NCBI GenBank assembly: GCA_037447655.1
Contig: JBBHKE010000660.1
Location: 180,016-244,015 of the forward strand
Source: Zygnema cylindricum
Taxonomy: Eukaryota > Streptophyta > Zygnematophyceae > Zygnematales > Zygnemataceae
Length of the DNA stretch: 64,000 bases
Direction: 5' to 3'
Under the pieces are notes generated by a model, which was given only the letters and a program-made list of their open reading frames with translations, was not told where the DNA came from and did not search any database. The position numbers and the translations under genes were made by a program. Positions 1-63,604 of the stretch are shown here, piece by piece. Position 1 is the stretch's first letter. Each line of letters starts with the position of its first letter.

Positions 1-454
1 CCTTTATGGGGTTTTCTCTCCCCACTCCATCCCTTTGTGCCTCTTCCCTTTGTACTATTGGTCGACGTCGTATATTACGCCGAGGAAATGGAGGGTAGCG
101 ATGACGATACGGCAAGACAATACGTTGTCGAATATACGACTGCATGTTGCCCTCCATGTAAATCAGCCACACGTGACAAAAAAAAAAAAAAAAAAAAGGC
201 GGCTACACAAAAGGATGAGAGAATACAGGAGTTTGTCTTAAAATGGTTGTACGTAAAAAATAACGCATGAGGTTTTAACGCATCATATGCATTTAAAATA
301 TACTTACAGATTGTATTTTCGCGACGGCACGAAGTCGTCGCTAATCCAATCAATTTGATCATTCCAACAGTGTGGCGACGAAACGAAATTAGGAGATGTC
401 ACGGTTCACTGCTTATAAGATTCTAATAGTGGCAACGTGTCATGCCGCATGGTA
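1..454. other. Intergenic/repeat flank left of the gypsy element
   Basis: No gene is supported here. There is an A-tract near 179-197 and, at about 290-430, a stretch that is loosely collinear in the same orientation with about 10,870-11,040: both share ACTTACA, AAGTCGTCG, a GACGAAA block and a TCACGGTT-like block in the same order. The two copies could be badly diverged LTR ends of the gypsy element or subterminal repeats of an older DNA transposon; I cannot decide. Confidence 0.35.
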
Positions 455-720
455 TCGGACGCATGCGCGCACAATATTTTGCATGCGTACACGATATCGC
501 GCACGCACACGCACAATATTGTGCTCGCACGCGCGATATTCTGCATGCGTGCACGATACGGTGCACGCACACGCGTTATTGTGTCCACGCGCACGATATC
601 GTGCACGCGTTCACGATATTCGGCGGTGCGCGTGATTTCATTCACACGCGCACGATATCATTCTCGCACGCACGATATTTTAGCGTGCGTGTATGATTTT
701 CGGTCGCACGTGCGACCGCG
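455..720. repeat. Degenerate palindromic minisatellite (GCACGATATCGTGC type)
   Basis: Imperfect units of about 18-24 bases built on the self-complementary core GCACGATATCGTGC alternate with CGCACGCGC spacers. The array can fold on itself on either strand, and it produces similar low-complexity reading frames on both strands that are not genes. Weaker related sequence (TTTCGTGCG, GGTAC) continues to about 960. Confidence 0.65.
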
Positions 721-1132
721 ATTTATTTATGTTAGATGTGTACGCTATTCGCGTACACGTCTAATAGAACACATACTAATTTCGTGCGTGGGTACCATGT
801 CGTTTCGTGCGCAGGTACACATTTTTCAAGTATTTCGTGCGATACCATATATTTCGTGCGATATGTTTCGTTTCGTGCATACGCACGCGATTTGGGGAGT
901 ATCGACGTGAAGTATCGTTTGGAGGCGTATCGCGATTTCCGGGCGACGCGTCGATTCATATGTTTATTTAAGTCGCGAACCCATGTAGGTTCGCGCATAC
1001 ATGTAGTTAGGGAGGGTTTTTACTAGTGTTGGGTATCGAGGACCCATTGCCGATATTCGATATATATCGAATTTCATGTACCCGATATTCGATATATCGC
1101 TTCGATATATCGAATTTCAAATTATCGCGATA

Positions 1133-1212
1133 TATCGCCGATATATCGCCGATATATCGCCGATATATCGCCGATATATCGCCGATATATCGCCGATATA
1201 TCGTATCGACGA
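1133..1212. repeat. 11-bp minisatellite GATATATCGCC
   Basis: About seven uninterrupted copies of the 11-base unit GATATATCGCC lie inside the hAT-type MITE. The unit contains the palindrome CGATATATCG, so the array can form cruciforms. The same CGATATATCG words recur on the right side of the MITE. Confidence 0.85.
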
Positions 1213-1256
1213 TATATCGAATATGAAAATTTTAAATTTTTTTTTTTCAAAACCCA

Positions 1257-1294
1257 CCCCCCCCCCCCCCCCCCCCCCCCACTGAGCGCTCAGT

Positions 1295-1333
<39 letters not shown>
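1257..1333. repeat. C-tract / palindrome / G-tract hairpin
   Basis: A run of 24 C is followed by ACTGAGCGCTCAGT, a perfect palindrome, and then by a run of 39 G. Together they make a long inverted repeat whose stem is almost pure G:C, at the centre of the MITE. The G run could also form quadruplexes. Homopolymer lengths may be affected by sequencing error. Confidence 0.85.
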
Positions 1334-1336
<3 letters not shown>

Positions 1337-1564
1337 AATCCGTACGATTTTTCGTACGATTTGTCGTACGATTCTCCGTACACTTTTTCGTAAGGTTTTC
1401 CGTACTCTGACTGTACGGACACGAAATTTTTGCGATATATATCGCGATAATTTATGTTGGTCTCGGTACGATATATCGAGGATCCTCCTCGATCGATATT
1501 CGATATATCGAATATCGAAATTATCGCGATATGAATCTACCCGATACCCAACACTAGTTTTTAC

Positions 1565-3599
1565 CCTCGGACAGTGGATTATGCGGAACGTGCGGCAGAC
1601 AATGTTGGCCGCCTATTGGCCAACATTTTAAGTAGTTCTTTCATGTGAACTAGTCTAGACTTAGGTTAGGGTTTGCGTAGGCGTAGCGTAGCTAATACTT
1701 AGTCTATTTTCAGACTTAGAATTTCTAGCTTTTGGACAAGAATTTTCTCTTGGCGGCGGAGCTTTCTCTTGCTCTCTCTCTCACCGATTGCTCAAGTTTC
1801 CTCCTTTCTTTTGCTAGCTAGCTGTAGAGGCTAGATAGTTTACGTACATTCTCCTTTGTAATTTTGCCCACGCTTTTAATCGACGCGGCTCAAAGCCAAG
1901 TCCGGAAGGTTTCCCTCCAACTTGTGTCATTTTTGGGAAGTGGTGGATTGGAGTTCGTGTGGAGAAGCATCCGGATCCGGCTGCCCTTCCAACGGACAGC
2001 TAGACGGTTTGGGTGTTTGTTTTGTGTTGTTTGTATTTTCGGTTGGGAATGGAAGGGTGAATTTTGGCTGAATTTTGAGTTTTCCTTGTTTTTGGTTGGA
2101 ATTATTTATTTTGCTTCGTTGCTTTCGTACGAGATAACTCTTGTAAAGAATACGTTGAAGACCCAAGAGCCTAGTGGCTACCTTGTGGCTTAGTATTCTT
2201 GTCCAAAAGGCTTCGCATTTCAAAGGCTTTTATTTGAATTAAATTATTAAAAATATCAAATTTATTTTATAAAAAGAAAAAAATATCACCTTTCATTTTC
2301 AGTTTTAATTCATAGCTTGGTCTCTTCTATTTTCTTTCCAAATTACATTTCGTTTTCAGTTTTGCTTTGAAATAAAAATATTACAAAATTAATTAATTTT
2401 ATAAATTTTATTTTATAAAAAAAAAAAAAAAAAAAAAAAACATAATGTTTTTGTTTCCGCTATTTCTTTCTTTTAATCTTTGTCTCTTATTCTGTCACCA
2501 CTATATTTCTTGGCTTTAGTGTTAAACCTAAATTTTGTTCGAATTTAGGGTTGATCTGCAAAATTAGGGTTAATCTACAGAATTAGGGTTCGGAGGCAGA
2601 ATTAGGATTTTGGCTGCAAAATTAGGGTTGCAGCATATTTAGGGTTTATTCCTTTTGATTCCAGTCCTTAGGTCAGTATCCTTTTATTCTTTGGCTGCAG
2701 ATTTGGAGTCTTGGCCGTCTAGAATTAGGGTTTTCCTTTGGAATTAGGGTTTTCCAAGTGGAATTAGGGTTGACTGCTGGCTTTGGATTATTGTGGTCAC
2801 AAGTTGGGCTGTATATCTGGAGTTTGAGCGGCCTCGTACTTTATTCTAACACACGTTCCCTATCTATCGTATTTGTTTGTCTTATTGTTTATTTTTCTTC
2901 CACCGAACGCTATCTTCCCTCCCTTCCATTGATCCCCTAACATTCCACGACATACATCTTCACGGTACAAACGGGTCTTGCGGAGGATTATTTTGGAGAC
3001 GTTGCTCGGAGCGAATTTCGTGGAGTGAATTTTATCACAGGGAGCTGTGCAAAACCCGACTTGCTTCGAACAAGTTCGGTTCACCCTTAGTGCTCACCAA
3101 AGCACTAAAGGTGTCTGTAAGTAGCCGATGCCTTGCGGGTGCAAGAGCGTTCCGATTTAGTGTGGACACTCGTGTAGGGGATCGGTGTGGAAGGGTTCCA
3201 TAGTGAACCTTTTTTATAGAGCATTTGCATTTTCCGGCTTTCCCTGCATGCTATCTGGCCCTAAGTGGCCTTGGATTTTCTTGTGACTATCTGGAGTGGG
3301 ATTTCTTGCTAGATCTTGCCGTGGGTGGCACTTTGTAGACCTTTTCCCGGCTGTGTTCTTGTAGATCTGCACCCTAGGGTGCCTAGATAGCAATTTTCTT
3401 GTTTTTATAGATCTAGCCCTTTGGCCTTGCCAACTGTTTGCAGGGTAGAGGTTTTGGTAAACCGACTTCTTGCTAGATACGACCATCGGGTCTTGATAGT
3501 GACTGGTGTGTTGACTGGACGAGTGGATTAGTTTGACATGTGTTGCATCTCGATTAGGTCTTGCCAAACATTTCATTATTGTAGTCAGGGTTTTCCCCT
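1565..3599 (+). other. Presumed 5' LTR/leader region of the gypsy element; no gene
   Basis: No reading frame with recognisable content lies between the MITE and the gag start at 3600. The stretch is T-rich, contains poly-A and AT-rich blocks (2,230-2,440), the telo-box-like cluster (2,540-2,780), and a less AT-rich part (3,000-3,600) that looks like the untranslated leader of the retrotransposon. I could not find a convincing primer binding site or delimit the 5' LTR. Confidence 0.4.
2540..2780 (+). repeat. Cluster of telo-box-like AATTAGGGTT motifs
   Basis: Nine occurrences of AATTAGGGTT or close variants (AATTTAGGGTT, TATTTAGGGTTT, AATTAGGATT) lie in 240 bases, spaced roughly 18-25 bases apart apart from one gap. 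The core TTAGGGTT is the reverse complement of the plant telo-box AAACCCTAA, a known regulatory element bound by telomere-repeat-binding proteins. This is not a telomere array, because the motifs are separated by unrelated sequence. A regulatory role is inference. Confidence 0.55.
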
Positions 3600-4859
3600 T
3601 TGTTTGTGCCCACAGATTGGGATAACCTTCATTATTTATCCGAGTCCACCCAAAGAGGTACACTGTATCGTCCTCCGCAGATAAATCCTTCGGATTTTCC
3701 CGAATCATGGACCACATCCGATCCGATTACGAATCGCAGATCGTCGTCAGTGCGGTCTGGTCTCACATCTACGTCATCTGTGTCCTCGGTTTCATCTAGG
3801 TCACAACTAGAGGGGACCGAAGAAGACTTCCTAGAGGAAACCTTTCCTACTCCTCACACTCGTAGGTCCCCTATCAGCCCATCTTTGGCACAACCGGCCA
3901 ATCCTTCCCTTTATGACATGGCTTTCTCTTCAGAGGGATCCATGGGAAGGATGCAATTCTGCTTTTCCAGATTAAAGGACACCATGTCCTTGTCGCATTT
4001 CCGTATGTTATACAATACGGAAATGAGGGATTTAGCATTTAGATATCAGGATAGGTTTGACCTCTGTGTCGCTTTTTCCCTACACGGTCGATACCTTCGT
4101 GGTACGGCCCGCACACTCTACACTCGCAAGTACAAGGATGTGCTTCCGATGACAAAGTACGTGGCTCCCTTTGCGGGGTTACCAGAAGTCTTAGGCCAAG
4201 TGGATATCCCATATCAGGCACCAAGACCAGTAGTATTAGATGCCAATGGGGACGAGTTGTATCCAGCTATCCCCGAGGTTCCCCGTCAGTATGCAGTGGC
4301 TGCCCGAGCGGCGGTCCCAGCTAGAGCGGGGGGCACCATTCCCTTACGTGACCCTCTCTCAGTCATGTTTGACATCCTCCAAGAGGAGTACCAGATGCAA
4401 AATCCGGATCAGATCAAAGAGTTAATGAACTTCGAGCGTAGGCCAGGTGAAACTGCCCCTGCCTTGCGAGATCGGATGGAAACTCTGCGTGAAGCATTAC
4501 CGGACCTCATGTCCGATGCGAAGGCTGCCCAAAAATTTGTGGGACAGTTTCCAGGTCCTTCAAAGAGGTTTATCCCAAACCACCTCAGCCAGATGTATGG
4601 ACTGAAATTCACCTTTAAGCAAGTGGCTCAGTACGCGGTAGAGTATGAGATGCAGACATCGTGGTGGGATGCCCATGAGCGTTCCAAACCTCCTCACAGA
4701 GAACCGGTTAATCTATCTCCTCCTCCACCTAAATTCCCATGGCCTCCTAATAGGCCCCAGAAGACGCCGGCCATAAGAACTCCACCCGTTAGTCCCGAAA
4801 ACCGAATGTGTTTCCGATGTGGAAAAACCGGGCAGGATGCCCGCATGTGTCTTGACTAG
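3600..4859 (+). CDS. gag: Gypsy Gag polyprotein (first part, to in-frame TAG)
   Basis: 419 codons. It would form the capsid/nucleocapsid of the retrotransposon particle in the cytoplasm. The N-terminal 100 residues are Ser/Thr/Pro-rich; the middle (about residues 110-370) is the capsid-like part with a PGETAPALRDRMETLREALP helix-type segment; a Pro-rich linker follows. Near the C-terminus is a zinc-knuckle-like CFRCGKTGQDARMC in which the usual His is not in place. The frame stops at TAG (4857-4859), but the same frame continues at once with a proper knuckle CTHCHQKEHYVNRC, so the stop splits the nucleocapsid domain. It is probably a CAG-to-TAG change; programmed readthrough is possible but the position inside the domain argues against it. 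The start is the first ATG of the open frame; the true start could be elsewhere. Confidence 0.75.
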   Translation: MFVPTDWDNLHYLSESTQRGTLYRPPQINPSDFPESWTTSDPITNRRSSSVRSGLTSTSSVSSVSSRSQLEGTEEDFLEETFPTPHTRRSPISPSLAQPANPSLYDMAFSSEGSMGRMQFCFSRLKDTMSLSHFRMLYNTEMRDLAFRYQDRFDLCVAFSLHGRYLRGTARTLYTRKYKDVLPMTKYVAPFAGLPEVLGQVDIPYQAPRPVVLDANGDELYPAIPEVPRQYAVAARAAVPARAGGTIPLRDPLSVMFDILQEEYQMQNPDQIKELMNFERRPGETAPALRDRMETLREALPDLMSDAKAAQKFVGQFPGPSKRFIPNHLSQMYGLKFTFKQVAQYAVEYEMQTSWWDAHERSKPPHREPVNLSPPPPKFPWPPNRPQKTPAIRTPPVSPENRMCFRCGKTGQDARMCLD

Positions 4860-6188
4860 GTGGCCACTTGCACTCATTGCCACCAAAAGGAACATTATGT
4901 CAATCGGTGCCACATCAAGGACCCTAATTTCACCTATCAAAATCAGATAAAGAACGCTGGAATTCCAACCCGTTCCGCGAAACCAGTCACTCCGCCTAAG
5001 GAGACTGGGAAAGAGGAAGCTCCCCCTAAGATCTCTTGTAGAGAGAGAGAGAAGGCCGAGCTTCAAGCCACAATGGCGGCCATGATAAAAGAGCAATTTG
5101 CAGCTTTCATGGCGGAAATGAAACCTCAGTTTACTGGGATGGCCAGGACCGTTGTCCACATGCCGCCGTTGGCTGGGCGAACCCTTCGGGATTCCACCGT
5201 CCAACAACGGGTTACCACATTTGAAAAGGGCTCAGCAGATCATAACGGAGTGGGCAAATTACAAAATTCTCGTGTCCCACTCTCATTTGCAAAAGAGCCT
5301 CTGCCTTCCCTACCGGACACAGTTTATACCATCGCGGCAGAGGCACTGACCATATTGGATGGCACTATTCATGAGGCTCATCGGGTAAAGGAGCGATTAA
5401 GTATTCTTTCTGCAATGTTGGAAGATGTACCGAAAGCCCTTCCCCTCGTTGATGAGGTCGCAGCAGCAGCCGCTTTGAGGGCTCTGCAGTTAAACCGCAG
5501 CCTCTCAGCGGTTCAACCCGTTACTACGGAAGAGCGTGGTAATCTCGATCCCCATATCAGTTTCCTTGATAACTCACGGGGATCATTCTCAGTGAACGGT
5601 GTTCACCCCACTCTTCCTCTCATGGACACCGGGGCCAAACCCGTGATCCTCGGATCCGGATTTGCGCTCAAGCTTGGTCTGACAGCAGACAAGCTTCAGG
5701 CGACCACTACCCGTCTTCTTACTTCGGCTGGGACCACGGAGCCGGTCCTCGGAATCACAAAGGACCCGCTCATCTTTCGGTTTGAGACAGGAACCGAAAA
5801 TGAGTCCGTTGAAATTGTTGTCAGAGCATTAGTCACTAAATGTGACGACTATGAGTGTTTGGTGGGTCAAGACGTTATATTCCGAATTGGCGGTGGTGTG
5901 GACATGCACGACCAAACATTTTCTTACCGACCGACACACTTTCCGGAGCGCAAAATCTGCCTCCCTCTCATTTCAGCCCGCCGACCTTTGCCCACTATGG
6001 CTCACTCGGCTACGGCTCTTCCCGCATTTTTGGGGAACTCCGTTGGGGAGGAAATTTTCCACTCTCTTCGGCCGAAGAAATTATACGGGATAGTTCTCCC
6101 TTACCCGAGCTCTTTGCGGAATCGGGTTTTCTTATATATTCTCACACCTTTGACAATATTTACAAGTCCACATTATCTATTCCATTAA
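4860..6188 (+). CDS. Gypsy zinc knuckle, linker and aspartic protease
   Basis: This continues the gag frame after the TAG, without a start codon at the junction. It opens with a CX2CX4HX4C knuckle (CTHCHQKEHYVNRC, about 4,872-4,913), which binds RNA in Gag. A Lys/Glu-rich linker follows (KEQFAAFMAEMK region). The retropepsin-like protease lies at about 5,590-5,930: PLMDTGAKPVILG carries the catalytic D-T-G, followed by LGLTADKL and the later CLVGQDVI segment, which matches the second half of gypsy proteases. It would cleave Gag-Pol. From about 6,000 the frame loses sense; the continuing protein moves to the frame that encodes the methyltransferase, so a frameshift lies near 6,050-6,110. Confidence 0.7.
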   Translation: MATCTHCHQKEHYVNRCHIKDPNFTYQNQIKNAGIPTRSAKPVTPPKETGKEEAPPKISCREREKAELQATMAAMIKEQFAAFMAEMKPQFTGMARTVVHMPPLAGRTLRDSTVQQRVTTFEKGSADHNGVGKLQNSRVPLSFAKEPLPSLPDTVYTIAAEALTILDGTIHEAHRVKERLSILSAMLEDVPKALPLVDEVAAAAALRALQLNRSLSAVQPVTTEERGNLDPHISFLDNSRGSFSVNGVHPTLPLMDTGAKPVILGSGFALKLGLTADKLQATTTRLLTSAGTTEPVLGITKDPLIFRFETGTENESVEIVVRALVTKCDDYECLVGQDVIFRIGGGVDMHDQTFSYRPTHFPERKICLPLISARRPLPTMAHSATALPAFLGNSVGEEIFHSLRPKKLYGIVLPYPSSLRNRVFLYILTPLTIFTSPHYLFH

Positions 6189-7219
6189 CAACTATCCCTT
6201 CTATACCTACGGTTGCAACCGATCCTTCGGGTTTCTTTCCAATCAGTTGGAAGCCTGTACAGTTGAATCCTCATACAGACGGGGTCGTTATTTTAGATCT
6301 ATTCGCTAGGATCGGAACTTCACTATTGTCATGTTTACGGAATGGTTTCCTCATCCGTCACTACTATGCAGTAGAAATTGATGCATTAGCTAGAAAAGCA
6401 CAATTGCACCGCTGTAATCTCCTGCATTCACAGTATCCATAGTTGTTTCCAAAATCAGCCTTTCTACACATGCACACTGCTCTTCCACAAGACATCCGCA
6501 TCCTTAGTAATCATCACCTACGGGATGTCGAACCGATAGACCTTGTTTTCAGGGGGTGGGAGTGTCAAGGCATGTCTCGGGCCGGCAAAGGTCTTGGTTT
6601 GGCGGATCTCCGTACCAAATTGTTTTTTGAGCTTTTGAGGGTTGTTCATTTTCTTCAAACCATGGCCAAGCCTGTCGGATACATTTTAGAGAACGTTGTT
6701 GCTTATAATGATCTTCGGCCTACAGTCTTGGCTGACTATAAACGCATAGAACACCTTATCGGACCCCCGCTAATTATTGATGCCGCTCGGCATGGGTCCT
6801 TGGCACATCGGGTTTGCTCTAAATGGACAAACCTAATCGATGTTGGTCGTCTTCGTGAGGCTAATTTGTTTGTAAGACCTCCCACTACAGACATTACGAC
6901 CGTTTTGCTTCCCTTTCACCAAGTCCAATCATGTGTCCAAACTGACTACCCTCCGAATTACAACATTAATGTACCCTGCCAACCACTCAAGGTCCTTCCT
7001 ACTTTAGTGTCTTACCCTAATACCCATGCAAGCTCTCATAACAATCCAGGCATGCTTCAGAATAATGTTACTGGAGAGTTAGAGGAGCCTAGGGCCACAG
7101 AACGGGAGCATCTCATGCATTTTTTTACAAGCACTGTGCGGCCCCCGGCCTTACGGATAGACAGCGTTGCACTTTGTTGGGTAGGGTCACCGATCCTTAG
7201 TCGTTATCATTTGTCTTAG
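6110..7219 (+). pseudogene. DNMT3-like DNA cytosine-5 methyltransferase domain inside gypsy pol
   Basis: This domain would transfer methyl groups from S-adenosylmethionine to cytosine in DNA. Motifs appear in the canonical, non-permuted order: motif I VILDLFARIGTS (from about 6,284; SAM binding), motif IV RGWECQGMSRAGKG with the catalytic Cys codon at 6563-6565, then KGLGLADLRTKLFFELLRV, motif VI YILENVVAY, motif VIII IDAARHGSLAHRVCSKWTNL, and motif IX-like TEREHLMHF. ENVVA and IDA..S.AHR..W.NL are DNMT3 signatures rather than DNMT1, CMT or DRM. Lesions: TAG at 6440-6442 between motifs I and IV, PCQ changed to ECQ, the motif VIII R-x-R changed to R-x-C, and a frameshift near 7,217 in the motif X area. 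It sits between protease and reverse transcriptase in the same transcriptional sense. The DNMT call is strong; this copy being inactive is also clear. Confidence 0.88.
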
Positions 7220-7593
7220 GTCGCGGCCTTGCAGCTGGTCGCTACGCACAGAATCAACCCGTGCAACCAGCTGGGGGGGGGGGTACGATGGCTCCTTCAC
7301 GTCATGTTTCCTCTGGCACCTCTCTTTGTCTCAAGGGAAATCCATTGCAATATTTTCTCTTCCCTTCTCTCACAACTGCGGTTAAGGACATCTCTATCTA
7401 TGATTTCCACAACTCTAGTCATGTGTCTTGTGAAATCCCGGCCCATATAGCCGTTCAATCCACAATATCATCGTTTCCCGGTCTGGCACCACACTGGACA
7501 TCTGCATTTCCGACGCGTAGCTGGCACCACAGGGTGAACTACTTGCAGCAGACATCGAAAATGCGAGTTAGGCCTCTCCCTTATCGCCGATGA
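7220..7593 (+). pseudogene. Linker between methyltransferase and RT (frameshifted)
   Basis: After the TAG at 7217-7219 the sense frame appears to continue as LGRGLAAGRYAQNQP, shifted relative to the methyltransferase frame, followed by a G9-G10 tract (about 7,273-7,282) that is itself a likely slippage site. The open stretch runs to TGA at 7591-7593 and has no recognisable domain. It probably joins the methyltransferase C-terminus to the RT. Confidence 0.45.
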
Positions 7594-7615
7594 GCAAATT
7601 GCATTTGCTCAGGCA

Positions 7616-8911
7616 ATGGAAGCTTTCACTATTAAGAGTCCGGAGACGCCCAAGTGGAAGTTCGGTTCCAGTCTCACAATGGCGGAACAGGCACTATTAA
7701 GTGACACAGTCACCCGTCATATAGATGCGTTTGCTTTCTCCATGAATGACCTTGGACGTCATTCTACTTACAAAATGTCTATCGACCTTGAAGACGATCG
7801 ACCTATCTTTAAGCCGAAACACCGTCTCTCTGAAATGGAATGGGAGATGGTGGACAAAAGATGCGCTGAATTGGAAGAAGCCGGTCTAATCTATCGGTCG
7901 GATTCCACCTTTGCCGCCCCCACAGTCATGCCTAGGAAGAAAGATTCCGACGGAAATTTTACTGAGCGAAGAATGTGTGGGGACTATCGAGAGCTCAATG
8001 CTCGGACCGTTCAAGACCGCCACCCTATGCCTCTAGCGGAGGAAATATTTGACCATGTAGGTGGTGCAAAGTTCTTTAGCATTCTTGACTTGCGTCAAGG
8101 GTTTAACCAGATTGAAATCGAGGAAAGAGATCGGCATAAAACTGCATTTTGGGGCAGTGATGGTCGGTGGGAATGGGCAGTCATGCCTTTCGGTCTTAAA
8201 AACGCACCCGCCGTGTTTCAAAAAGTCATGGATTCGGTGCTGGGTGGATGTAAATTTGCCCGGTGCTACATCGATGACTTGATAATCGCTTCCGCCACGG
8301 TCGAGGAACACGCCCGCCATATTGAGTGGGTTCTCACCGAGTTGAAGAAAGTCGGGCTGAAGTGTCACCCAGCCAAGTGTACGTTCGGTGCGGAGGGAGT
8401 GCCCTACCTCGGCCATTTTATTTCGGCTGAGGGCATCACCCCCTTGGAAGCTAAGGTAGAGGCAATCACGAAATTGCCAGCTCCCACAGATCTCACTAGT
8501 CTGAGGGCTTTTCTCGGACTAGCCAATTATTACCGTCGGTTTGTACTAAATTTTAGTACGATTGCTTCTCCCCTCAATGACCTTCTCAAAAAAGAAGTGC
8601 CTTTTGTTTGGGGACCCGCCCAAGTAGAAGCGTTTCAAAAACTGAAAACCGCCCTCTCTAGCGCTCCCATTCTTCGACCTCCTAACCACAAGCTTCCCTT
8701 TTGCCTACAAACCGATTTCGGGAAGCCAGGCATTGCGGCTATTTTAACGCAAAGAGAGTTGAATGGAGAGGAATACGTAGTGGCATACGCTAGCCGGAGC
8801 AATAACCGAGCTGAATCTAATTACAGTAGTTATGAGGGTGAATGTCTCGCGCGGTATGGGGTATTGTTCATTTTCGACATTATCTTTACGGCAAGCCATT
8901 CACGCTCCTAA
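7616..8911 (+). CDS. Gypsy reverse transcriptase and first half of RNase H
   Basis: 431 codons. It copies the element RNA to DNA. The RT spans about residues 60-290: KPKHRLSEMEWEMVDKRC, RMCGDYRELNARTVQDRHPM, FSILDLRQGFNQIEI, MPFGLKNAPAVFQKVMD and the catalytic box CYIDDLIIAS, then YLGHFIS and LRAFLGLANYYRRF. The RNase H begins near residue 350 (FCLQTDFGKPGIAAIL, EEYVVAYASR, NYSSYEGECLA). At about 8,850 the frame breaks; the rest of RNase H continues one frame over, so the last 20 or so residues here are out of frame. The ATG at 7616 is simply the first Met in the open stretch; in the polyprotein no start is needed. Confidence 0.9.
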   Translation: MEAFTIKSPETPKWKFGSSLTMAEQALLSDTVTRHIDAFAFSMNDLGRHSTYKMSIDLEDDRPIFKPKHRLSEMEWEMVDKRCAELEEAGLIYRSDSTFAAPTVMPRKKDSDGNFTERRMCGDYRELNARTVQDRHPMPLAEEIFDHVGGAKFFSILDLRQGFNQIEIEERDRHKTAFWGSDGRWEWAVMPFGLKNAPAVFQKVMDSVLGGCKFARCYIDDLIIASATVEEHARHIEWVLTELKKVGLKCHPAKCTFGAEGVPYLGHFISAEGITPLEAKVEAITKLPAPTDLTSLRAFLGLANYYRRFVLNFSTIASPLNDLLKKEVPFVWGPAQVEAFQKLKTALSSAPILRPPNHKLPFCLQTDFGKPGIAAILTQRELNGEEYVVAYASRSNNRAESNYSSYEGECLARYGVLFIFDIIFTASHSRS

Positions 8912-9273
8912 TTGACCATCAACCCCTTCATTGGTTGATGACCAACGATAAGCTTTCAGAGAAACAAGCCCGATGGGCTTTAATTTTACAAGAGTACGAC
9001 GTTGAGATCATCTATCGGCCCGGTTTGTTAAGCTTGAACGCCGACAGGATTTCTCGGAATCCACTACCCCGGACCACCGATAACGGTGTCCGGCAAGATT
9101 TCGCCGAGGACGAGGTACCGGCCATGTCGGCTGGTTCCTATATCACTTACTGTCTTTCTTCTATTCCTCATCCTCGGCCGGCCACAGATCCGTGGCGCGA
9201 CGACCCATTAATCCTCTTCCTCTCCTCTCAAACGTTTCGGCCCGGTACTACCGCCGAAGAGGAAGACCAGTAA
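8842..9273 (+). pseudogene. Gypsy RNase H C-terminal part and connection
   Basis: This is the shifted continuation of RNase H: AVWGIVHFRHYLYGKPF, LLIDHQPLHWLM with its catalytic-region Asp, then EIIYRPGLLSLNADRISR, the standard tail of gypsy RNase H (HxPG..N..AD..SR) with N for the usual A/V. It overlaps the previous frame by about 70 bases because of a frameshift near 8,850. It ends in a less conserved acidic linker before the integrase. Confidence 0.8.
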
Positions 9274-10066
9274 AGAAACGAGCCAAAAATTATATGTGGC
9301 TCGGCGGATCTTTAGTTCGATTGCTGGCGGACAGCAGTCATCGGCATGTCCCCCCTGCCAACCGAGCGCTTGTCTTTGATTGAGCAGATACATACCGAGC
9401 TTGGCCATTACGGGACCAAGCGTACTTTGAGCCTTGTACAGGCACGCTATTGGTGGTCCGGAATGCAAGCGGATGTGGGGGCCATTCTCCACAAATGCGC
9501 CACATGCGACCGGCTACTCACCTCTTTCTCTAATCGGCAGGCGTCTCTACAGCCATTGCCTATCAGAGGATTGTTTTATCGCTGGTCCGTGGATCTCGCC
9601 GGACCGTTTCCCTTATCTCGAAAGAGGAAACAACACATCATGATAATGATTGAAAATTTTTAGCAAGTGGGTAGAGGTGGTCGCTCTTCCCCACAAGACC
9701 GCTAAATTGACCACTGCTGCTTTTAAAGAGCACGTTCTCATGCGTTATGGAGCTCCTGCGGAGGTTCTTACGGACCAGGGTACGCAGTTCCGTGGGGAAT
9801 TTCAAGAGATGTTGGATGAAGCTTTAATTGATCATCGCCGGACGAGTCGTGATCACCCACAAGCCGATGGCTTGGCGGAACGAGCTGTCCAAACTTTGAA
9901 GCGGGCCCTCCGAAAGCATTGTTTAGAGAAACACATCTCCGTTTGGGACGAATCCTTGGGCTATATCACCATGGGATACCCGATGTCCGTACAGGCTAGC
10001 TTGGCTAATTTCAGCCCGTACTATATTCTCTTCGGTCGAGCACCCTTGCTCGGTCGGAATATTTAG
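9274..10066 (+). pseudogene. Gypsy integrase zinc-binding and catalytic core (frameshifted)
   Basis: The integrase inserts the cDNA copy into chromosomal DNA. Pieces lie in three frames. First RHVPPANRAL (to about 9,370), then IHTELGHYGTKRTL with CATC (HHCC zinc domain, about 9,385-9,515), then WSVDLAGPFP with the first catalytic Asp. A one-base T insertion in the T-run near 9,657-9,661 shifts to FSKWVEVVALPHKTAKL, EVLTDQGTQFRGEF (second Asp) and GLAERAVQTLKRAL (catalytic Glu). The frame ends at TAG 10,064-10,066 after FGRAPLLGRNI, but the same frame continues with sense beyond it. Confidence 0.85.
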
Positions 10067-10663
10067 AAAGCAACAAGTTTACCTTTGCCTCTAATGTTTG
10101 ACACCATATTTTTGGAAGAACTAACTCGCCGTGCTTTGCTTTTCGCTCGTGAGATGCCCATGGCTTTTGATAATTTGTAGATTTTCCAACATCGGGATAC
10201 TTTACGCTTTGCCACCACGCGAAGTGGCAGTTACAAGCCTCAACAGAAATCTTACCGAGTCGGAGATTACGTGTACCTTCGACGACAATCTTTCGACACT
10301 TTGGACACGGATGTTTCACCACACATTCTTCGTGTGGTGGAAATGGATGCTAATGGGATGTTGAGTTTGCAGGGTGCGGATACAAGGATAATTCGAGAGC
10401 ATTCGAAGAACTGTGCACCTTGTTACTTACCAGATTTGTCACAGGATATGGATCCGATGAGGATGCCAATCACAGAGGCGACAGAATGTACCATTTGCAG
10501 GCGAACAGACGGCGAGACTTCCATGCTCTTGTGCGACCATTGTAACCAAGGGTTCCACATGGAGTGTTTAGTTCCTCCATTGACTGCTGTGCCAGGTGGC
10601 CATTGGTTTTGCCATGGCTGTCGTGAGCTGCCAGCGGTTTTGACCAGCTCCTCCGCAGGCTAA
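10067..10663 (+). pseudogene. Integrase C-terminal domain fused to a PHD finger
   Basis: This is the same frame as the integrase core, after TAG 10,064 and with another TAG at 10,178. KSYRVGDYVYLRRQ is the usual integrase C-terminal (GPY/F-like) entry. A full C4HC3 PHD finger follows at about 10,487-10,623: CTIC, eleven residues, CDHC, four residues, H, two residues, C, then GGHWFCHGC with the conserved Trp two positions before the seventh Cys. PHD fingers of this form typically bind histone H3 tails, often methylated at K4. In chromoviruses a chromodomain sits in the same place and guides integration, so a targeting role is the natural inference. The open part (10,271-10,663) ends at TAA next to the polypurine tract. 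There is no chromodomain. Confidence 0.87.
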
Positions 10664-10680
10664 GGAGCTGGGGGGGGGAA
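10664..10680 (+). other. Polypurine tract of the gypsy element
   Basis: GGAGCTGGGGGGGGGAA directly follows the pol stop codon. In gypsy elements the plus-strand primer tract lies just 5' of the 3' LTR, so the LTR should begin near 10,681. Confidence 0.6.
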
Positions 10681-11380
10681 TTATAGGATTCACTTATTGC
10701 TAAGGGAGTATTCTTCCCTTTTTATTCTTTCGCCATCTTCACCTTTATTCTTTTGCATGTTGTATATACATTTTGACCATCTCATTCATTTTCGTTTGTA
10801 TATATGTTTGGAGCATGACTTTGCTGGTTGGGATGCATGTTCGCTCTTTCTAGTCTCTCATGCACGACAAACGACGTGCAAAATACACTTACAAACTGTG
10901 TGGTCCACGACAAAGGAAAGTCGTCGTGTCTCTAATTTTTTTGGATAATCTAACAGTGCGTTGACGAAAGTGAATTGAAAAATCACACGGTTTAATGATT
11001 CCGCGATTCCAACAATAGGACAAAGACAAAGCCTCGTCGACCATACGAAGGTTCATACTTATTGTACTAACTAAAGACAACAAATTAAAATATGCTCGAT
11101 ATTGTAGTTTGTCACTTTTATCATTGTCGCGACGACAAATTGTCGTCGCCAGTTCGATTTCTTCATCCACGCGTCGGCACTTCAATGTGGCCGCCTGCTA
11201 ACAATATTAGTATATTACAACCATAAGCGACGACACGCTGTCGTCGGTGTTTCACGACGGTGCACGAGGATCCAACATAACAACATTAAGAAAATGTGGT
11301 GGGGGCGTGGAAAAAATATATATAAATTCTAACGAACACATAAAGGTAGAGATAAACAAAATGCCACATTATAAGCGAAT
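10681..11380. other. Presumed 3' LTR remnant with GACGAC...GTCGTC hairpin motifs
   Basis: There is no gene. The part just after the polypurine tract should be 3' LTR. At 10,905-11,260 short hairpins recur (ACGACAAAGGAAAGTCGTCGT, then GCGACGACAAATTGTCGTCGC near 11,125, then GCGACGACACGCTGTCGTCG near 11,228), and a related motif sits near 314-336. Such GCGACGAC repeats resemble subterminal repeats of plant CACTA (En/Spm) elements, but I see no CACTA terminus. About 10,870-11,040 is loosely collinear with about 290-430. Confidence 0.35.
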
Positions 11381-20079: not shown

Positions 20080-21027
20080 TCACAACGGGAGAACGAGTAT
20101 GGACTTGAAAGTTTTGCAATTAGAAAGTGTCTCGCGAATACGAGCCTCATCCACTTCGTCATCCTTGATATTTTTCATTCGATTCCAATTAGAAAAACTG
20201 TTGCATTTCGCAATCCTGATTACCACATCTTCCAAAGGAGAACCTGTCTCAACAAGTGATTGAATAAAATGATCCAAAACATAATTCGAATGATCGTCAA
20301 AATCCAGAAAATTGACATGTAACTCACGAAGATGATTCATTTTGAAGCCCGTAGAGCTATGATCTTCCTCGAAGTCTGAAGTCTCATGGTTAAAATCCTC
20401 ATAATCCTCAATTAACAAAAATGTTAGAGTTGAACATTTTACGACAACTAACATTGGATCTTCGTAAAAATAATTACAAGAAAGAGATAGTCGACGTAGT
20501 CCAAAAGAAGAATTCAAAAGGAGATCGCTTAGACCCTTATTACTAAGATCACCGCTGCACGCTATAAGAGATAAATCTTGCAAGAGCTTACAACTTTGTC
20601 CTATCTGCGCTCCAATTTCGTCGTCCAAAAATACCCCATAGAGATGCAATACTCTCAATTGAGACAAAGTTTTTACACAAGCCGATATTGGTCTTTTTTC
20701 TAAATAACAAGGAAGCAAATCACTACAAGTGTCACCTATTTGCAAAACTTGCAAATTGGGTAGTTTACTAATAATTGTAAAAACGGAATCGTCGATATTT
20801 TTCGCAATCGGGCGGAGGTCAAGTTTCGTTAAACAAGGAAAGTTTTTGGGTATTTCCTCGATCTTGTCCATGTGTAGACACGTAATTCGTTGTACGGAAC
20901 CAAGTACGATTTGACGATGAAGTTTGGACACTAGTGAAAAGTTGAGGAGGTTGTTGTGGCCTTCAAGGAAAGAAGTGATGTGAGAGAGGAGGTTGGAATC
21001 GTGGACTACTTGATCCATGGACTCCAT
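20080..21027 (-). CDS. F-box-like/LRR protein, arm 1 copy
   Basis: 315 codons, no intron. The ATG at 21,027 (ATGGAGTCCATGGAT) is chosen because both copies align from it and the upstream extension is low-complexity pyrimidine-rich sequence. The N-terminal about 45 residues (LLSHITSFLEGHNNLLNFSL, VSKLHRQIVLGSV) fit a degenerate F-box, which would bind SKP1 in an SCF ubiquitin ligase. Leucine-rich repeats follow: LPNLQVLQIGD, LSQLRVLHLYG, CKLLQDLSLIAC, LRRLSLSCN, CSTLTFLLIED, MNHLRELHVNF. These usually form the substrate-binding side. It is the same length as the arm 2 copy, with eight or so amino-acid differences, all in the first half. It is likely functional as far as sequence shows; the substrate is unknown. 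Confidence 0.82.
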   Translation of the reverse strand: MESMDQVVHDSNLLSHITSFLEGHNNLLNFSLVSKLHRQIVLGSVQRITCLHMDKIEEIPKNFPCLTKLDLRPIAKNIDDSVFTIISKLPNLQVLQIGDTCSDLLPCYLEKRPISACVKTLSQLRVLHLYGVFLDDEIGAQIGQSCKLLQDLSLIACSGDLSNKGLSDLLLNSSFGLRRLSLSCNYFYEDPMLVVVKCSTLTFLLIEDYEDFNHETSDFEEDHSSTGFKMNHLRELHVNFLDFDDHSNYVLDHFIQSLVETGSPLEDVVIRIAKCNSFSNWNRMKNIKDDEVDEARIRETLSNCKTFKSILVLPL

Positions 21028-21310
21028 GGCTAAACAAAGGTAAAGGAGAAGGGACAAAATAAAAATACAATCAAAGAATGAAGGAATGTGCAAAGTAAAG
21101 AGAAGGGATAAAGTTGTAAATAAGAAAGTAAAAGGAGGAGGAATGTACAAATGAAAGGGAAGGGTCAAAGTAACAAAAAAGAAAGGAAAAGGAGAAGGTA
21201 TATATAATAAAAAAAGAGGAGAAGGAAGAGGTGATGGAGGAGAAAGAGTTAAAGGGAGGTCAAAGGACGAAAGGAAAAGCGAACGAACTTTCCACGAAGG
21301 AGAGTCCAGC
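21028..21310 (-). other. Purine/pyrimidine-rich upstream region of the F-box-like gene
   Basis: Read on the minus strand this is CTTTTCCTTT-type pyrimidine-rich DNA immediately 5' of the start codon, mirrored at 32,480-32,770 in arm 2. Pyrimidine-rich leaders are common in plant 5' UTRs. No TATA box was identified with confidence. Confidence 0.4.
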
Positions 21311-22048
21311 AGTACTAAGGCTGAAGTTCCATCAGACGAAAAGTGCAACTTGTTTACAAAATCCCGTAGATTTTCGTACCATAACGTATTGTTTATCTAT
21401 GTGTTTTATTTTTCGAGAAACGGGATAACAGAAGATCCCACCGACATTATCCAAAGGTTTGGGAGGTAACAATGACCATGGGATTATGTTTGGTTATTCA
21501 TCCGCGGAAAAACCGCTCCATCCGGTTCTCTATTTGGCTGCCCACCTGGGGGAGGTAGCTACAGTGGTCAACTACAAAACGTGTAAAACTGAAATACACC
21601 GTGAATTGATACACGTTTCACGATGGGGAAACCAGCAGAATTTTTCACAGGTCGCACAGGTCATGTGCCTTCGGTCAAAGGTAGACACGAGTCCACCAAA
21701 ATCCAGCCGAATTTTTTCTGCCGAAATATTCGTAATTATTCGTAACTTTTCTTTCGTCGCGCTCTTTCTGCCATCCTTCAGGTTCGCGGATTCCCGCGCA
21801 AAGAGCAAGGATTTCTGTGGTACAATGACATATGCGCAAAGTACATTGTACCTGGTAAACAAATATATGGTACGAAAATTGATTTTACGCAGTGAAATTG
21901 GTCGTTTTGTAAAATCGTCGTCGCGCGCGACCAAATCAAGCCACATTATTTAACAGCGCCAATATTTTGCTCTCAAAGTGGAGCTCACGTAAAGTGAGAA
22001 AGTGTCTGCGCCAACACTTTTATGTTCATGAGGTTGCCGCAGTTTCGC

Positions 22049-32363: not shown

Positions 32364-32772
32364 TAAAACACATTGATAAACAATACGTTATGGTACGAAA
32401 ACGTACGGATTTTTGTAAACAAGTTGTACTTTTCGTCTGATGCAACTTCAGCCTTAGTACTGCTGGACTCTCCTTCGTGGAAAGTTCCGTTCACTTTTTC
32501 CTTTCGTCCTTTGACCTCTCTTTGACTCTTTCACCTCCATTACCTCTCCCTTTTCCTCTTCCTTTCTTGTCTATACCTTCCCCTTTTCCTTTCTTTTTTG
32601 TAAATTTATCTCTTCTCTTTCCTTTTACATTCCTCCTCCTTTTCCTTTCTTACATACACCTTCTCCTTTTCCTTTCTTATTTACAACTTTATCCCTTCTC
32701 TTTACTTTGCACATTCCTTCATTCTTTGATTGTATTTTTATTTTGTCCCTTCTCCTTTACCTTTGTTTAGCC

Positions 32773-33720
32773 ATGGAGTCCATGGATCAAGTAGTCCACG
32801 ATTCCAATCTCCTCTCTCACATCACTTCTTTCCTTGAAAGCCACGACAACCTCCTCAACTTTTCACTAGTGTCCAAATTTCATCGTCAAATCGTACTTGG
32901 TTCCGTACAACGAATTACGTGTCGACACATGGACAAGATCGAGGAAATACCCAAAAACTTTCCTTGTTTAACGAAACTTGACCTCCGCCCGATTGCGAAA
33001 AATATCGACGATTCCGTTTTTCCAATTATTAGTAAACTACCCAATTTGCAAGTTTTGCAAATAGGTGACACTTGTAGTGATTTGCTTCCTTGTTATTTAG
33101 AAAAAAGACCAATATCGGCTTGTGTAAAATCTTTGTCTCAATTGAGAGTATTGCATCTCTATGGGGTATTTTTGGACGACGAAATTGCAGCGCAGATAGG
33201 ACAAAGTTGTAAGCTCTTACAAGATTTGTCTCTTATAGCGTGCAGCGGTGATCTTAGTAATAAGGGTCTAAGCGATCTCCTTTTGAATTCTTCTTTTGGA
33301 CTACGTCGACTATCTCTTTCTTGTAATTATTTTTACGAAGATCCAATGTTAGTTGTCGTAAAATGTTCAACTCTAACATTTTTGTTAATTGAGGATTATG
33401 AGGATTTTAACCATGAGACTTCAGACTTCGAGGAAGATCATAGCTCTACGGGCTTCAAAATGAATCATCTTCGTGAGTTACATGTTAATTTTCTGGATTT
33501 TGACGATCATTCGAATTATGTTTTGGATCATTTTATTCAATCACTTGTTGAGACAGGTTCTCCTTTGGAAGATGTGGTAATCAGGATTGCGAAATGCAAC
33601 AGTTTTTCTAATTGGAATCGAATGAAAAATATCAAGGATGACGAAGTGGATGAGGCTCGTATTCGCGAGACACTTTCTAATTGCAAAACTTTCAAGTCCA
33701 TACTCGTTCTCCCGTTGTGA
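32773..33720 (+). CDS. F-box-like/LRR protein, arm 2 copy
   Basis: 315 codons, single exon. ATG at 32,773 follows a pyrimidine-rich leader. It has the same domain plan as the arm 1 copy: a degenerate F-box near residues 10-55 (LLSHITSFLESHDNLLNFSL, VSKFHRQIVLGSV), then at least six leucine-rich repeats, and an Asp/Glu-rich tail (VDEARIRETLSNCK). It would act as a substrate adaptor of an SCF ubiquitin ligase if the F-box is real; the F-box is weak, so a plain LRR protein is the alternative. Differences from the arm 1 protein include G/S and N/D near residue 27, L/F, L/R, T/P, T/S and G/A; none occur after about residue 160. No stop or frameshift is seen. Confidence 0.82.
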   Translation: MESMDQVVHDSNLLSHITSFLESHDNLLNFSLVSKFHRQIVLGSVQRITCRHMDKIEEIPKNFPCLTKLDLRPIAKNIDDSVFPIISKLPNLQVLQIGDTCSDLLPCYLEKRPISACVKSLSQLRVLHLYGVFLDDEIAAQIGQSCKLLQDLSLIACSGDLSNKGLSDLLLNSSFGLRRLSLSCNYFYEDPMLVVVKCSTLTFLLIEDYEDFNHETSDFEEDHSSTGFKMNHLRELHVNFLDFDDHSNYVLDHFIQSLVETGSPLEDVVIRIAKCNSFSNWNRMKNIKDDEVDEARIRETLSNCKTFKSILVLPL

Positions 33721-35487: not shown

Positions 35488-35688
35488 TACTGTTGGGTAT
35501 CGGGTAAATTCATATCGCGATAATTTCGATATTCGATATATCGAATATCGATCGAGCAAACTCCTCAGTATATCGTACCGGGGCCAATATTTAGCTTCTT
35601 GGTACATGGTCGCAATATATCGATTATCGGCAACCTAAAATTCGATATATATCGAATATTGGCAATAGGTCCTCGATACCCAACACTA
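35488..35688. mobile_element. 201-bp hAT-type MITE, relative of the 1,024-1,556 element
   Basis: The ends TACTGTTGGGTATCG and CGATACCCAACACTA match the termini of the element at 1,024-1,556. The interior is again GATATATCGAATAT-type. Arm 1 near 18,230 has no insertion, so it arrived after the duplication. The target duplication is worn and cannot be read with confidence. Confidence 0.8.
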
Positions 35689-50196: not shown

Positions 50197-51602
50197 TCAT
50201 TCCTTTATTGCGTCTATTGCGATTGCCCCTTCGGTTAAGGTGAGTGTCCGACTCTGCGTAAACCGGCGCAGCAAATCGGGTGAATGCACATCTTTCTCGT
50301 CTACCCAAGAATCATCTTCAACTCTGTAGCCCTTCCAACGCACCAAATATTGGGTGGAGTTAGAATACGGAGAGCGACGCGAATGAAGGATCTCCTCCAC
50401 CTCGTACTCGTCCGATGTACCCTGAATGGGCGGTAAAAGGGTACTTCGCCGTCGAGTAAGAAAAATCAAATTCGGGTCGCGAAACGGTTTGAGAAGGGAA
50501 ACATGGAAAACATTGTGAATATGCCTGTCCCTCAGTATATCTAACTTATATGCCATCTCTCCCACCCTTGAAAAAACAGTGAACAGACGTGTAAATCTCG
50601 GTGCCAATTTCTTAGAGAGGGCACCGGGTAACGACACGTTTGCCATATTAAGGCGAACTTTATCACCCACGTTAAACACAATGTTCTTCCGGTGAGAGTT
50701 GGCGTGCGACTTTTGACGGTCCTTTGTTAGCTGGAGCGGCCTCGCCGCCTTTTCCAAATTCCCTTGCAGTGTTTTGGCAAAATCAAGTGTAGCAGGTGTA
50801 GGGCAATTCACTGCCAATAAATTTTGGGGAGGGGTGGGCTATCGTCCATTGAGGGAAATTTTCTTAGCATTCGTGGACGAGTGCACCGCACTGTTGTACG
50901 CCACCTCAATTGCCGTCAAATGGTTCACCGAATCTGTTTGGTTCACCGATACATAAGCCTGCAAAGCCTCCTCCAGAGTCCGATTCACCCTTTCGGTGTG
51001 ACCGTCGGTCTGAGGGTGATAAGCTGTAGACATGGCCAACTGCGTCCCAAACAACTCAAACAGACTTCTCCAAAAGTGACTCACAAATTTTCGGTCACGG
51101 TCGCTGACGATTCTCTTCGGGAGTCCGTGATGGTGAAATATCTCCCGGAGGAATAAGTCTGCCACATCCCGCGCTGTGGCTGTGGTTGTCATGGGCAGGA
51201 AATGGGCCATTTTCGTCAAATAATTCACGACGACCAAGATAGAGTCATAGCCCTCCCGAGTCAACGGAAGAGCAACGATGAAGTCCAACGAAATCGCCCC
51301 CCAAGGAACAAATGGTGTCGGAACAGGTTGTAACAGGCCTTGGTGACCTGATTCCAATTAATTTCTGTTATATGAGTCACACGTCCGGACATACTCTGCA
51401 ATGTCCCGAGTCATGTTCGGCCAATAATACGCCTCAGCGACACGTGCTGTTGTTTTATCCCGTCCGAAATGTCCACTGAGCGGCTCATCATGACTCATTT
51501 TAAGTACCGAATGACGTAACTCTTGGTTTGTCGGGACGTAAAGTCTAGTTGTTTGAATTGGTCTGTATCGCCACATACCATTGGAGGTTCGAACTAATAT
51601 CT
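50197..51602 (-). pseudogene. Chromovirus integrase with chromodomain
   Basis: From 51,576: HSVLKMSHDEPLSGHFGRDK and CDSYNRN (HHCC zinc domain with the final Cys replaced), a TAA at 51,358, then AISLDFIVALPLTREG (first Asp), IVSDRDRKFVSHFW (second Asp) and HTERVNRTLEEALQAY (Glu). A frameshift near 50,840 leads to FNVGDKVRLNMANV, then a chromodomain near the C-terminus: YEVEEILHSRR, QYLVRWKGYRVEDDSWVDE. Chromodomains of this kind bind methylated histone H3 and steer integration to heterochromatin. A short tail ends at 50,197. Confidence 0.87.
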
Positions 51603-51608
51603 TCTATT

Positions 51609-53246
51609 TTACCAGTTCCTTAAATGTCTCGTCTTCTTCGTATACGGCCTTAATCCTATTGAACCATGGTCGTATACTTGTACCGTACTGGTCACTGCGT
51701 TGAGTTCCGGATCCTGCGTTTTGTCCGAAGCTGCGGTGTTTATTTTTACAGCGCCTACGTTTCCATCTTGCGATGCTTGCGATTGTTGCTCCGTGACTGG
51801 CACAGCTACTCGAAGTCTTCTTGACAGCGCTTCCCCCGGGTTCGTCTTGCCTGGTCTATACTCAATAGCTAGATCTGGCCCGAAGGTCTGAAGAAACGTC
51901 ATCCATCGTACCTGTTACTTTGAGAACTTCGGCTGGGTCTGAAGATACAGTAGGGCGTGGTGATCGGTGATGATTGTGATCCGCTTCCCTTGAACATAAC
52001 ATTTCCAAACCTCCAGCGCATTAATATTGGCGATTGTCTCCTTTTCATGTGTGGCCCAATTAAGCTCCGCTGCCTTTGGTTTCTGACTGTCGTAGGCAAT
52101 GGGTTGAAGGCCTTTTCCTTGATCTTGCATAAGGATCGCTCCAATAGCCATATCGCTAGCGTCGGTGATTATCGTCTTAGGTAATTCCGAGTCGGGGACG
52201 GCTAACACAAGGACGGTAACCAATCGCTCTTTTAGCGTGTCAAAGGCTGCCCTTTGCGCCGTTTTCCACTCATAGGGCATGTCATTCTTAAGTAATTCTG
52301 TGAGCGGTGCATCAATTTTTGCAAAACCTTCAACAAAACGGCAATAGTAGGAGTATAATCCAAGAAAGCTCCGTAACTCTGTAATGTTCGTCTGCTGCGG
52401 CCACTCCTTCACTGCCCTAGTTTTGTTGGCATCCACTACGATTCCATCCTGGCTCACAACATGACCCAAAAACTCAATTTTCTCCTTCAAGAAGTCACAT
52501 TTACTCCTCTTCGCATACAACTTGTTCTCCCAAAGGACTTGAAAGACCGTTTGCAGATGCTCGACGTGATCCTCCAACGTCTTGTTGTACACCAAGATGT
52601 CGTCCAAGAAGACAATTACGAAGGTGTCCAAATATTGCCGAAAGATTGAATTCATCAAATGCATAAAGGTTGCCAGTGCGTTGGTCAATCAAAACGGCAT
52701 AACCCGAAATTTGAAATGACCGTACCGAGTTCTTAACGCCGTCTTTTCCACATCTTCCTCGGCAATTATGATTTGGTGATAGCCACTTCGCAGGTCTATC
52801 TTCGAAAAATATTTAACACCTCGTAGTCGATCAACAGTTCGTCTATCATCGGAAGAGGGTACGCATTTTTCACCTTTAACTTGTTTAGCGCTCGGTAATC
52901 CTCACACATCCGAAAACCTCCATCTTTCTTATTCACGAAGAGGACGGGGGCTCCATACGGTGACTTGCTTGGTTCGATTGCTCTGGCTTCGATTAACTCC
53001 GCAAGTTGCTTTTTGAGTCCATCTAATTCGGTGTAGCTCATCTTGTACATTCGATTTGCTGAGGTACCGCTCCGGAAACAAGCTCGATCTTCTGGTCTAC
53101 TTCGGGCTTCGGAGGTAAGCCTTTTGGGAGCTTCAGGGGAAAAACATCAACATACTTCTGGAGAAGTTTTGTCACGACTTCCGGGGCCTCTACGGTAGTC
53201 TTTCCAGTGTCGTCACTCTCTTTCGAGTCGAAGTTGTAGAAATCAA
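51609..53246 (-). pseudogene. Chromovirus reverse transcriptase and RNase H
   Basis: From 53,246: [14 protein letters not shown] and [20 protein letters not shown] (linker), [59 protein letters not shown], a frameshifted [12 protein letters not shown] piece, then TFVIVFLDDILVYNKT (catalytic FLDD) from 52,688. RNase H: ITDASDMAIGAILMQ, NWATHEKETIANINALEVW, ITIITDHHALLYL, and after another shift DLAIEYRPGKTNPGEALSRR to 51,609. Active-site residues are present but the frame is broken at least three times. Confidence 0.88.
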
Positions 53247-54288: not shown

Positions 54289-54301
54289 GGTTATGTGCCC
54301 A
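54289..54301 (+). other. Half-tRNA primer binding site (copia A)
   Basis: GGTTATGTGCCCA directly follows the LTR. It equals GGTTATGGGCCCA, the complement of the anticodon arm of initiator tRNA-Met, with one change. Confidence 0.7.
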
Positions 54302-54304
54302 CCA

Positions 54305-58015: not shown

Positions 58016-58090
58016 ATAGATAAAATGGTCAGTGCTGATCCTGATATATCCTAGATCGGTGAGAAACTCATCTAGTTTCTTATTCCACTG

Positions 58091-58714: not shown

Positions 58715-58740
58715 GGAAGCCGGTTCTTGTCCCGCTTCTT

Positions 58741-63592: not shown

Positions 63593-63604
63593 CCCTTTAG
63601 GGTA

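Follow-up and report, generated by a model that had tools for sequence, protein, structure and literature searches.

The described system closest to the element reported here is KnitGypsy-Dnmt3 of Klebsormidium nitens, a Gypsy element with a DNMT3 methyltransferase in Pol and DIRS-like repeats (de Mendoza 2018, PMC5890265). According to the text of that paper, the Ka/Ks of the DNMT is below 0.2, and the K. nitens DNMT3 enzyme displayed no activity in yeast, in an assay that the authors themselves call inconclusive. The same source describes SymbioDIRS-Dnmt3 of Symbiodinium and names DIRS elements with a Dam-type N6A methylase. For streptophytes and dinoflagellates, Sarre et al. 2025 (PMC12344493) speak of DNMT3 within retroelements of the LTR Copia and DIRS types, and methylase-bearing transposons are stated to be absent from land-plant genomes such as those of tracheophytes (PMC6338049).

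We analysed a stretch of DNA of 64,000 nucleotides, the whole of which we call the window. Positions 438-10869 hold one decayed copy of an old and large family of retrotransposons, in which a DNMT3-type methyltransferase has been captured into a gypsy-type pol. As described for KnitGypsy-Dnmt3 (PMC5890265), the domains are of Gypsy type, the DNMT3 is intronless and lies in the Pol frame, the repeats are DIRS-like and the DNMT is under purifying selection; in contrast, the window element bears a PHD finger, a term absent from the main text of that paper, and the present genome holds two deep lineages, a comparison in which KnitGypsy-Dnmt3 is represented by its description only. With SymbioDIRS-Dnmt3, as described there, the family shares a DNMT3 inside pol and A-coding-B-A-B repeats, but it has a DDE integrase, a gypsy-type pol order and 4-bp duplications where the Symbiodinium element has a tyrosine recombinase. 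The Dam-type DIRS elements likewise combine a methylase with split repeats in a retroelement, although the methylase is unrelated and the integration enzyme is another one. PMC12344493 names LTR Copia and DIRS elements, whereas here the integrase follows RNase H, as in gypsy-type elements. In the accessible text of the open-licence literature we found no DNMT-bearing Gypsy element beyond that of K. nitens, and neither the Glu motif, the PHD finger, 4-bp duplications together with split repeats, a copy number such as this one nor the two lineages described below; some of these features may be shared with the K. nitens element, known here by description only.

Organisation of the window element

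The limits of the element were set by comparison with a relative. Its pol (4860-10663) comprises, all on the plus strand, protease, DNMT, reverse transcriptase (RT), RNase H, integrase core and PHD finger. The features are as follows.

434..437, no strand: target-site duplication AACG, left copy
438..2196, +: repeat A, starting TGTCATGCC, split by a nested insertion (1024-1556); right end (~2196) inferred from the A/B junction of relatives
3585..4859, +: gag-type frame with a CCHC-like knuckle at its end, assigned by position and motif, without Pfam match
5589..5777, +: retroviral-type aspartic protease (MDTGAKP) in frame 4860-6188 (PF13650, 3.4e-5, 24.9 bits, cut-off 24.3)
6250..7257, +: DNMT3-type C5 methyltransferase domain, broken; borders approximate
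6296-6319, +: DNMT motif I (FARIG)
6557-6568, +: DNMT motif IV (WECQ)
6689-6697, +: DNMT motif VI (ENV)
to about 7257, +: DNMT motif X, in a different frame
7270..7283, +: internal polypurine-like G tract directly 3' of the methyltransferase, with AGCTGGGGGGGGG in common with the 3' polypurine tract
7538..8911, +: reverse transcriptase and start of RNase H (RVT_1, 6.2e-30; RT_RNaseH_2, 1.5e-23)
8842..9273, +: remainder of RNase H, in a shifted frame (RT_RNaseH, 4.3e-14)
9650..10066, +: DDE integrase core, part (rve, 7.1e-8, 33.1 bits, cut-off 32.6)
10487..10621, +: PHD finger at the C-terminal end of pol (PF00628, 6.9e-12; PDB PHF12, 8.6e-15)
10662..10678, +: 3' polypurine tract AAGGAGCTGGGGGGGGG
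10679..10869, +: repeat B, ending CATGCACGACA, 99.5% identical to B1 of the relative in a match that starts at 10677, inside the G run
10870..10873, no strand: target-site duplication AACG, right copy

Repeat A matches repeat A of the relative at 98% identity in two pieces (438-1023 and 1557-2189). Plain LTR searches within the window found no pair, because the layout is A-coding-B, and a tRNA search of the window found none. The pol order PR-RT-RNaseH-INT with a DDE integrase core, as given by Pfam matches only, is that of gypsy elements. Two identical terminal LTRs are not present (A-coding-B in the window), and we therefore speak of a 'gypsy-type pol' rather than of a plain Ty3/gypsy member. 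In chromoviruses, a chromatin-reader module, the chromodomain, is located at the C-terminus of the integrase; the window element has a PHD finger instead.

A broken methyltransferase of DNMT3 type

The original prediction, made from the letters of the window, had placed a C5-methyltransferase between protease and RT in the same sense, and profile searches bear this out: in addition to the PF13650 match upstream and the RT, RNase H and integrase matches downstream, the second DNMT frame (6443-7219) matches PF00145 (1.5e-7, 31.6 bits, cut-off 22), with no Pfam match in the first (5855-6442). The assignment to DNMT3 also stands. A PDB search with the second frame matched 29 sequences, all of them DNMT3A, 3B or 3C, and a fold model of the domain, of only limited confidence (pLDDT 53.5, pTM 0.63), gave 151 PDB matches at E<=0.001, the 50 listed among these being DNMT3 entries throughout (3A, 3B, 3C, some with 3L). 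A single-sequence fold of the broken window frame was useless (pLDDT 30.3). Among PDB C5 methyltransferases, both the nearest sequence and the fold match are thus DNMT3. Motif IV is Glu-Cys in the window lineage and Pro-Cys in lineage 2 (see below), and for this reason we name the window-lineage domain 'DNMT3-type' or DNMT3-derived.

Motifs I, IV, VI and VIII occur in the predicted order, with the motif-X region (TLLGRVTDP) going on in another frame to ~7257. The limits originally given (6110..7219) thus end about 40 bp too early; the N-terminal border of the domain is fuzzy (~6250), having been set by the conserved block in an alignment of open-frame copies. The window copy is dead and cannot encode the methyltransferase: a stop closes the reading frame between motifs I and IV, the frame changes and meets another stop towards motif X, the Gly of motif I is replaced by Arg, and pol has further frame changes outside the DNMT. 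The idea that this retrotransposon brings its own de novo methyltransferase is hence not supported in the form in which it was put forward. The ECQ of motif IV is a feature of the lineage, not of decay. The prediction had not included the PHD finger, the element ends or the target-site duplication.

Copy number and linkage to reverse transcriptase

A 258-aa frame served as query against the assembly that contains the window (2,689 contigs, 352.8 Mb). From 1,586 first-look candidates, 147 places were scored in 150 match rows, that of the window among them, at identities of 61-100%. The matched stretch, partial at some places, is free of stops at 44 of the 147. The PF00145 profile gave 782 candidates; of these, 123 were scored, every one of them above the cut-off. 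The codon pattern W-E-C-Q-G-M has 148 exact sites in the genome and W-P-C-Q-G has 200, as compared to 0 for the reversed control in either case; not all 200 W-P-C-Q-G sites are proven elements, three having been read (L041-L043), and few of the W-E-C-Q-G-M sites have been read as well.

A search for RT yielded 93 scored places among 4,193 candidates, at least 57 of which have a DNMT upstream on the same strand, a lower bound since only matches listed in the DNMT search count. The distance between the two domains is 0.7-1.4 kb in 56 of the 57 (median 1,107 bp). Four hand-picked places out of the 36 without a listed DNMT were read, and all four carry DNMT remnants, one nearly whole. The predicted capture of a DNMT in a Ty3/gypsy-type pol is thereby supported by many copies and, where checked, by a fixed distance to RT. 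Both outcomes named in advance as speaking against it, a domain present in one copy alone and a host gene with introns, are ruled out. Copies in K. nitens are described as fewer than those in Symbiodinium (PMC5890265); here, motif-IV patterns run into the hundreds, and gypsy-type elements with a DNMT3 can accordingly become numerous in a further genome, probably one of the green lineage.

A scan of viral contigs with the window frame found nothing. One of two weak viral-contig loci obtained with an alignment query (L049) encodes a Dcm-like enzyme amid phage-like genes and was rejected as a relative.

Two lineages of the element

The second lineage has Pro-Cys in motif IV in the three copies read. 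One copy (C544), from which the order of parts in this lineage is known, has gag-like, protease, DNMT, RT, RNase H, integrase and PHD regions arranged as in the window lineage, although the protease, at 22.7 bits against 24.3, and the PHD finger, at 20.6 against 24, fall short of the Pfam cut-offs. Its identity to the window is 35.5% in the DNMT frame, 48% in RT, 59% in the integrase and 38% in the PHD region. Over longer DNMT stretches of open-frame copies the two lineages are 40-42% identical to each other and 28-33% identical to human DNMT3A. In a PDB search, the best match of the lineage-2 DNMT is DNMT3A (2.3e-14), with weaker matches to HhaI, DRM2 and others. The simplest reading would be a single capture of the DNMT into pol before the two lineages split. 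Sister lineages with a canonical and an altered catalytic motif offer a natural comparison for the role of a self-encoded methyltransferase.

In lineage 2 we also observed the string AACTTCCTCAGTGGGGGGG both before gag and after the methyltransferase (L045:201, L041:1223).

Selection and an altered catalytic motif

To our knowledge, Pro-Cys is near universal in the C5 methyltransferase class. Our motif table for the window lineage covers 28 copies (27 loci and the window; the duplicates L001-L003 were left out). Glu precedes Cys in 25 of the 28 and Pro in none; WECQ is whole in 20, and the Gly of motif I is retained in 21 of the 26 copies in which it is readable. Among the WECQGM sites listed, both Glu codons are found along with many synonymous variants, and the six open-frame copies that we aligned all retain the Cys, the EN of motif VI, the HRVR of motif VIII and the motif-I Gly. 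Because Glu predominates to this extent, is encoded by both codons amid synonymous variation and is accompanied by intact EN and HRVR, it looks like a selected feature of the lineage.

As judged by dN/dS, the DNMT domain of the window lineage is under purifying selection. Twelve clean copies give 66 pairs, 18 of them usable, with a median of 0.24 (interquartile range 0.22-0.45); these copies were picked for open frames, which biases the value downwards, and the pairs are not independent. A further 41 pairs are saturated at synonymous sites (pS 0.74-0.85, pN 0.11-0.20) and the remaining 7 are too close. The corresponding value is 0.23 for RT (6 usable of 7 computed pairs) and 0.49 among 13 decayed copies (78 pairs). 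The DNMT has thus been retained by selection across a deep divergence.

Methyl transfer may be weakened or lost when Glu takes the place of Pro beside the catalytic Cys, and the Glu motif makes methyltransferase activity of the window lineage doubtful. The domain could by now be non-catalytic, DNMT3L-like or a decoy, retained by selection for binding DNA, RNA or a DNMT, for example by interfering with host silencing. We consider this a tentative reading, with odds somewhat against it. The motif-IV counts speak for it (Glu in 25 of 28, never Pro, and 148 genome sites, with Pro in the three lineage-2 copies read), as does the base composition: the observed/expected ratio of CpG is 0.85-1.11 for element halves against 0.64-1.12 for the flanks, and 0.86 for the coding part of the window element, so that in this comparison of halves with flanks we saw no CpG depletion in the elements and no footprint of CG self-methylation. 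However, a dead enzyme need not keep the Cys, EN, HRVR and motif-I Gly that persist in all six open-frame copies. The window has 25 private changes at 1,148 sites that are invariant in its relatives; 14 are C-to-T or G-to-A changes, to which CG, CHG and CHH contexts contribute 4, 5 and 5 (small numbers).

Split repeats and 4-bp target-site duplications

We fetched ten window-lineage copies, picked for long frames, in two halves each. Seven follow the order A-coding-PPT-B-GC-A-B (PPT, polypurine tract), that is, the DIRS-like split repeats; for KnitGypsy-Dnmt3 too, a DNMT3-type domain within a gypsy-type pol goes together with a DIRS-like layout. The GC spacer between B1 and A2 differs slightly among copies, and A1 and A2 are 100, 80.3, 99.1, 97.3, 99.5, 96.3 and 99.6% identical, at least 99% in four copies. 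Of the other three, one has B-A-B but we found no A on its 5' side, in another the A is inverted, and the third resembles A-coding-B. Around the one lineage-2 copy examined (C544) no split repeats were found.

The outer ends read TGTC...GACA, with a substitution in one left end. Seven of nine testable insertions, the window included, are bordered by exact 4-bp duplications (TTGG, TAGA, GGAT, read by eye, CCCT, CCCC and TTGT; AACG in the window), the other two having TCAT/GCAT (three of four bases) and GGGT/TAAT (none). Exact 4-bp duplications and TGTC/GACA ends are what a DDE integrase would leave. Members of the DIRS order are not known to make a target-site duplication; the elements described here combine such duplications with an rve integrase in place of a tyrosine recombinase, and split DIRS-like repeats can thus accompany a DDE integrase. 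We are highly confident in the overall description, which joins domain order, copy number, the two lineages, purifying selection, Glu-Cys-Gln, TGTC/GACA ends, 4-bp duplications and split repeats.

The segment B-GC-A, from the polypurine tract to the end of A, is what would make up a canonical LTR; the outer edges of this segment lack TG/CA, and the inserted ends fall at the palindrome GACA-GC-TGTC inside it. We infer, as somewhat the likelier account, that the cDNA bears an LTR composed of B-GC-A, that a circular intermediate with one or two LTRs (or an equivalent) forms, and that the DDE integrase opens it at the palindromic GACA-GC-TGTC junction inside the LTR; the opening would yield either A-coding-B, as in the window, or A-coding-B-A-B. 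The A-coding-B layout can also come from recombination between B1 and B2 in a full copy.

A-coding-B-A-B can also be written as a full plus a partial element, and the window itself shows only A-coding-B, so that the split repeats might be put down to tandem or nested insertions or to assembly artefacts, with no circular intermediate involved. This is improbable: the junction order is identical at seven sites (PPT|B, GACA-GC-TGTC with small differences, A|B without a PPT), six of these sites have their own exact 4-bp duplication at the outer ends, and the K. nitens element is described with this layout as well (PMC5890265). REM1 of Chlamydomonas, as described in PMC2774666, was weighed as a precedent for the odd ends and dropped.

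The internal G tract 3' of the methyltransferase is found in all seven split-repeat relatives, a G run is present in 14 of 17 short loci, and lineage 2 has G tracts with other flanks at the matching place. The tract (7270-7283; 3' counterpart 10667-10678) is a possible central polypurine tract.

Possible roles of the methyltransferase and the PHD finger

In the PDB, the PHD finger of the window element comes closest to PHF12, the PHD of lid and ubi-d4. Several fingers of this sort recognise the tail of H3 in its unmodified form, a property shared with the ADD domain of DNMT3. A link between the PHD finger and targeting of the DNMT is only an idea. In one conceivable scheme, which we hold to be slightly short of an even chance, the methyltransferase would be made within the pol polyprotein and travel with the cDNA to the insertion site, where it would methylate the new copy or its surroundings and the PHD finger would read histone H3; the outcome might be lower expression of the insertion and a lower cost to the host, or shielding of the cDNA. 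The missing CpG footprint, the Glu beside the catalytic Cys and the negative yeast assay of the related K. nitens enzyme weigh against it. The wider combination of circular-cDNA integration via an att site in the element's own LTR, a selected Glu-Cys motif (with changed chemistry or a DNMT3L-like role) and a PHD reader is, taken as one, rather unlikely to hold in every part.

The methyltransferase might alternatively serve in defence against DNA viruses or foreign DNA rather than in self-silencing, an accessory-domain idea that is aired as speculation in the text of PMC6338049; we regard it as very unlikely. Finally, the notion that a host DNMT3 gene or its retrocopy landed by chance in one element, an impression that the broken window copy alone could give, can be dismissed as next to impossible, since the domain is present in many copies and two lineages, at a fixed distance from RT, intronless in the copies read and under selection.

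Surroundings of the element

The insertion nested in repeat A (1024-1556) is a putative hAT-like miniature element: its ends, TAGTGTTGGGTATCG and CGATACCCAACACTA, are inverted, and the 8-bp string GTTTTTAC borders it left and right. A stretch of some 100 bp within it matches 35488-35590 on the opposite strand. Elsewhere in the host genome, one locus (L044) contains an exon that, read by eye, is chromomethylase-like, which suggests a green-plant lineage but does not establish the larger plant supposed in the original prediction. Two very similar frames in opposite orientation (20080-21396, minus strand, and 32515-33720, plus strand) are F-box/LRR-like by eye and lie within large inverted repeats (~15.4-22.4 kb and 29.2-38.5 kb, with pieces 88-95% identical). 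Further along the window there are pieces of another gypsy-type element with a chromodomain-like C-terminus (50197-52688, minus strand), among whose listed frames we noticed no methyltransferase, and Copia-type fragments (56975-59313, minus strand), both recognised by eye, and a 1.5-kb direct repeat at 53232-54709 and 62521-64000, the two copies of which are 82% identical.
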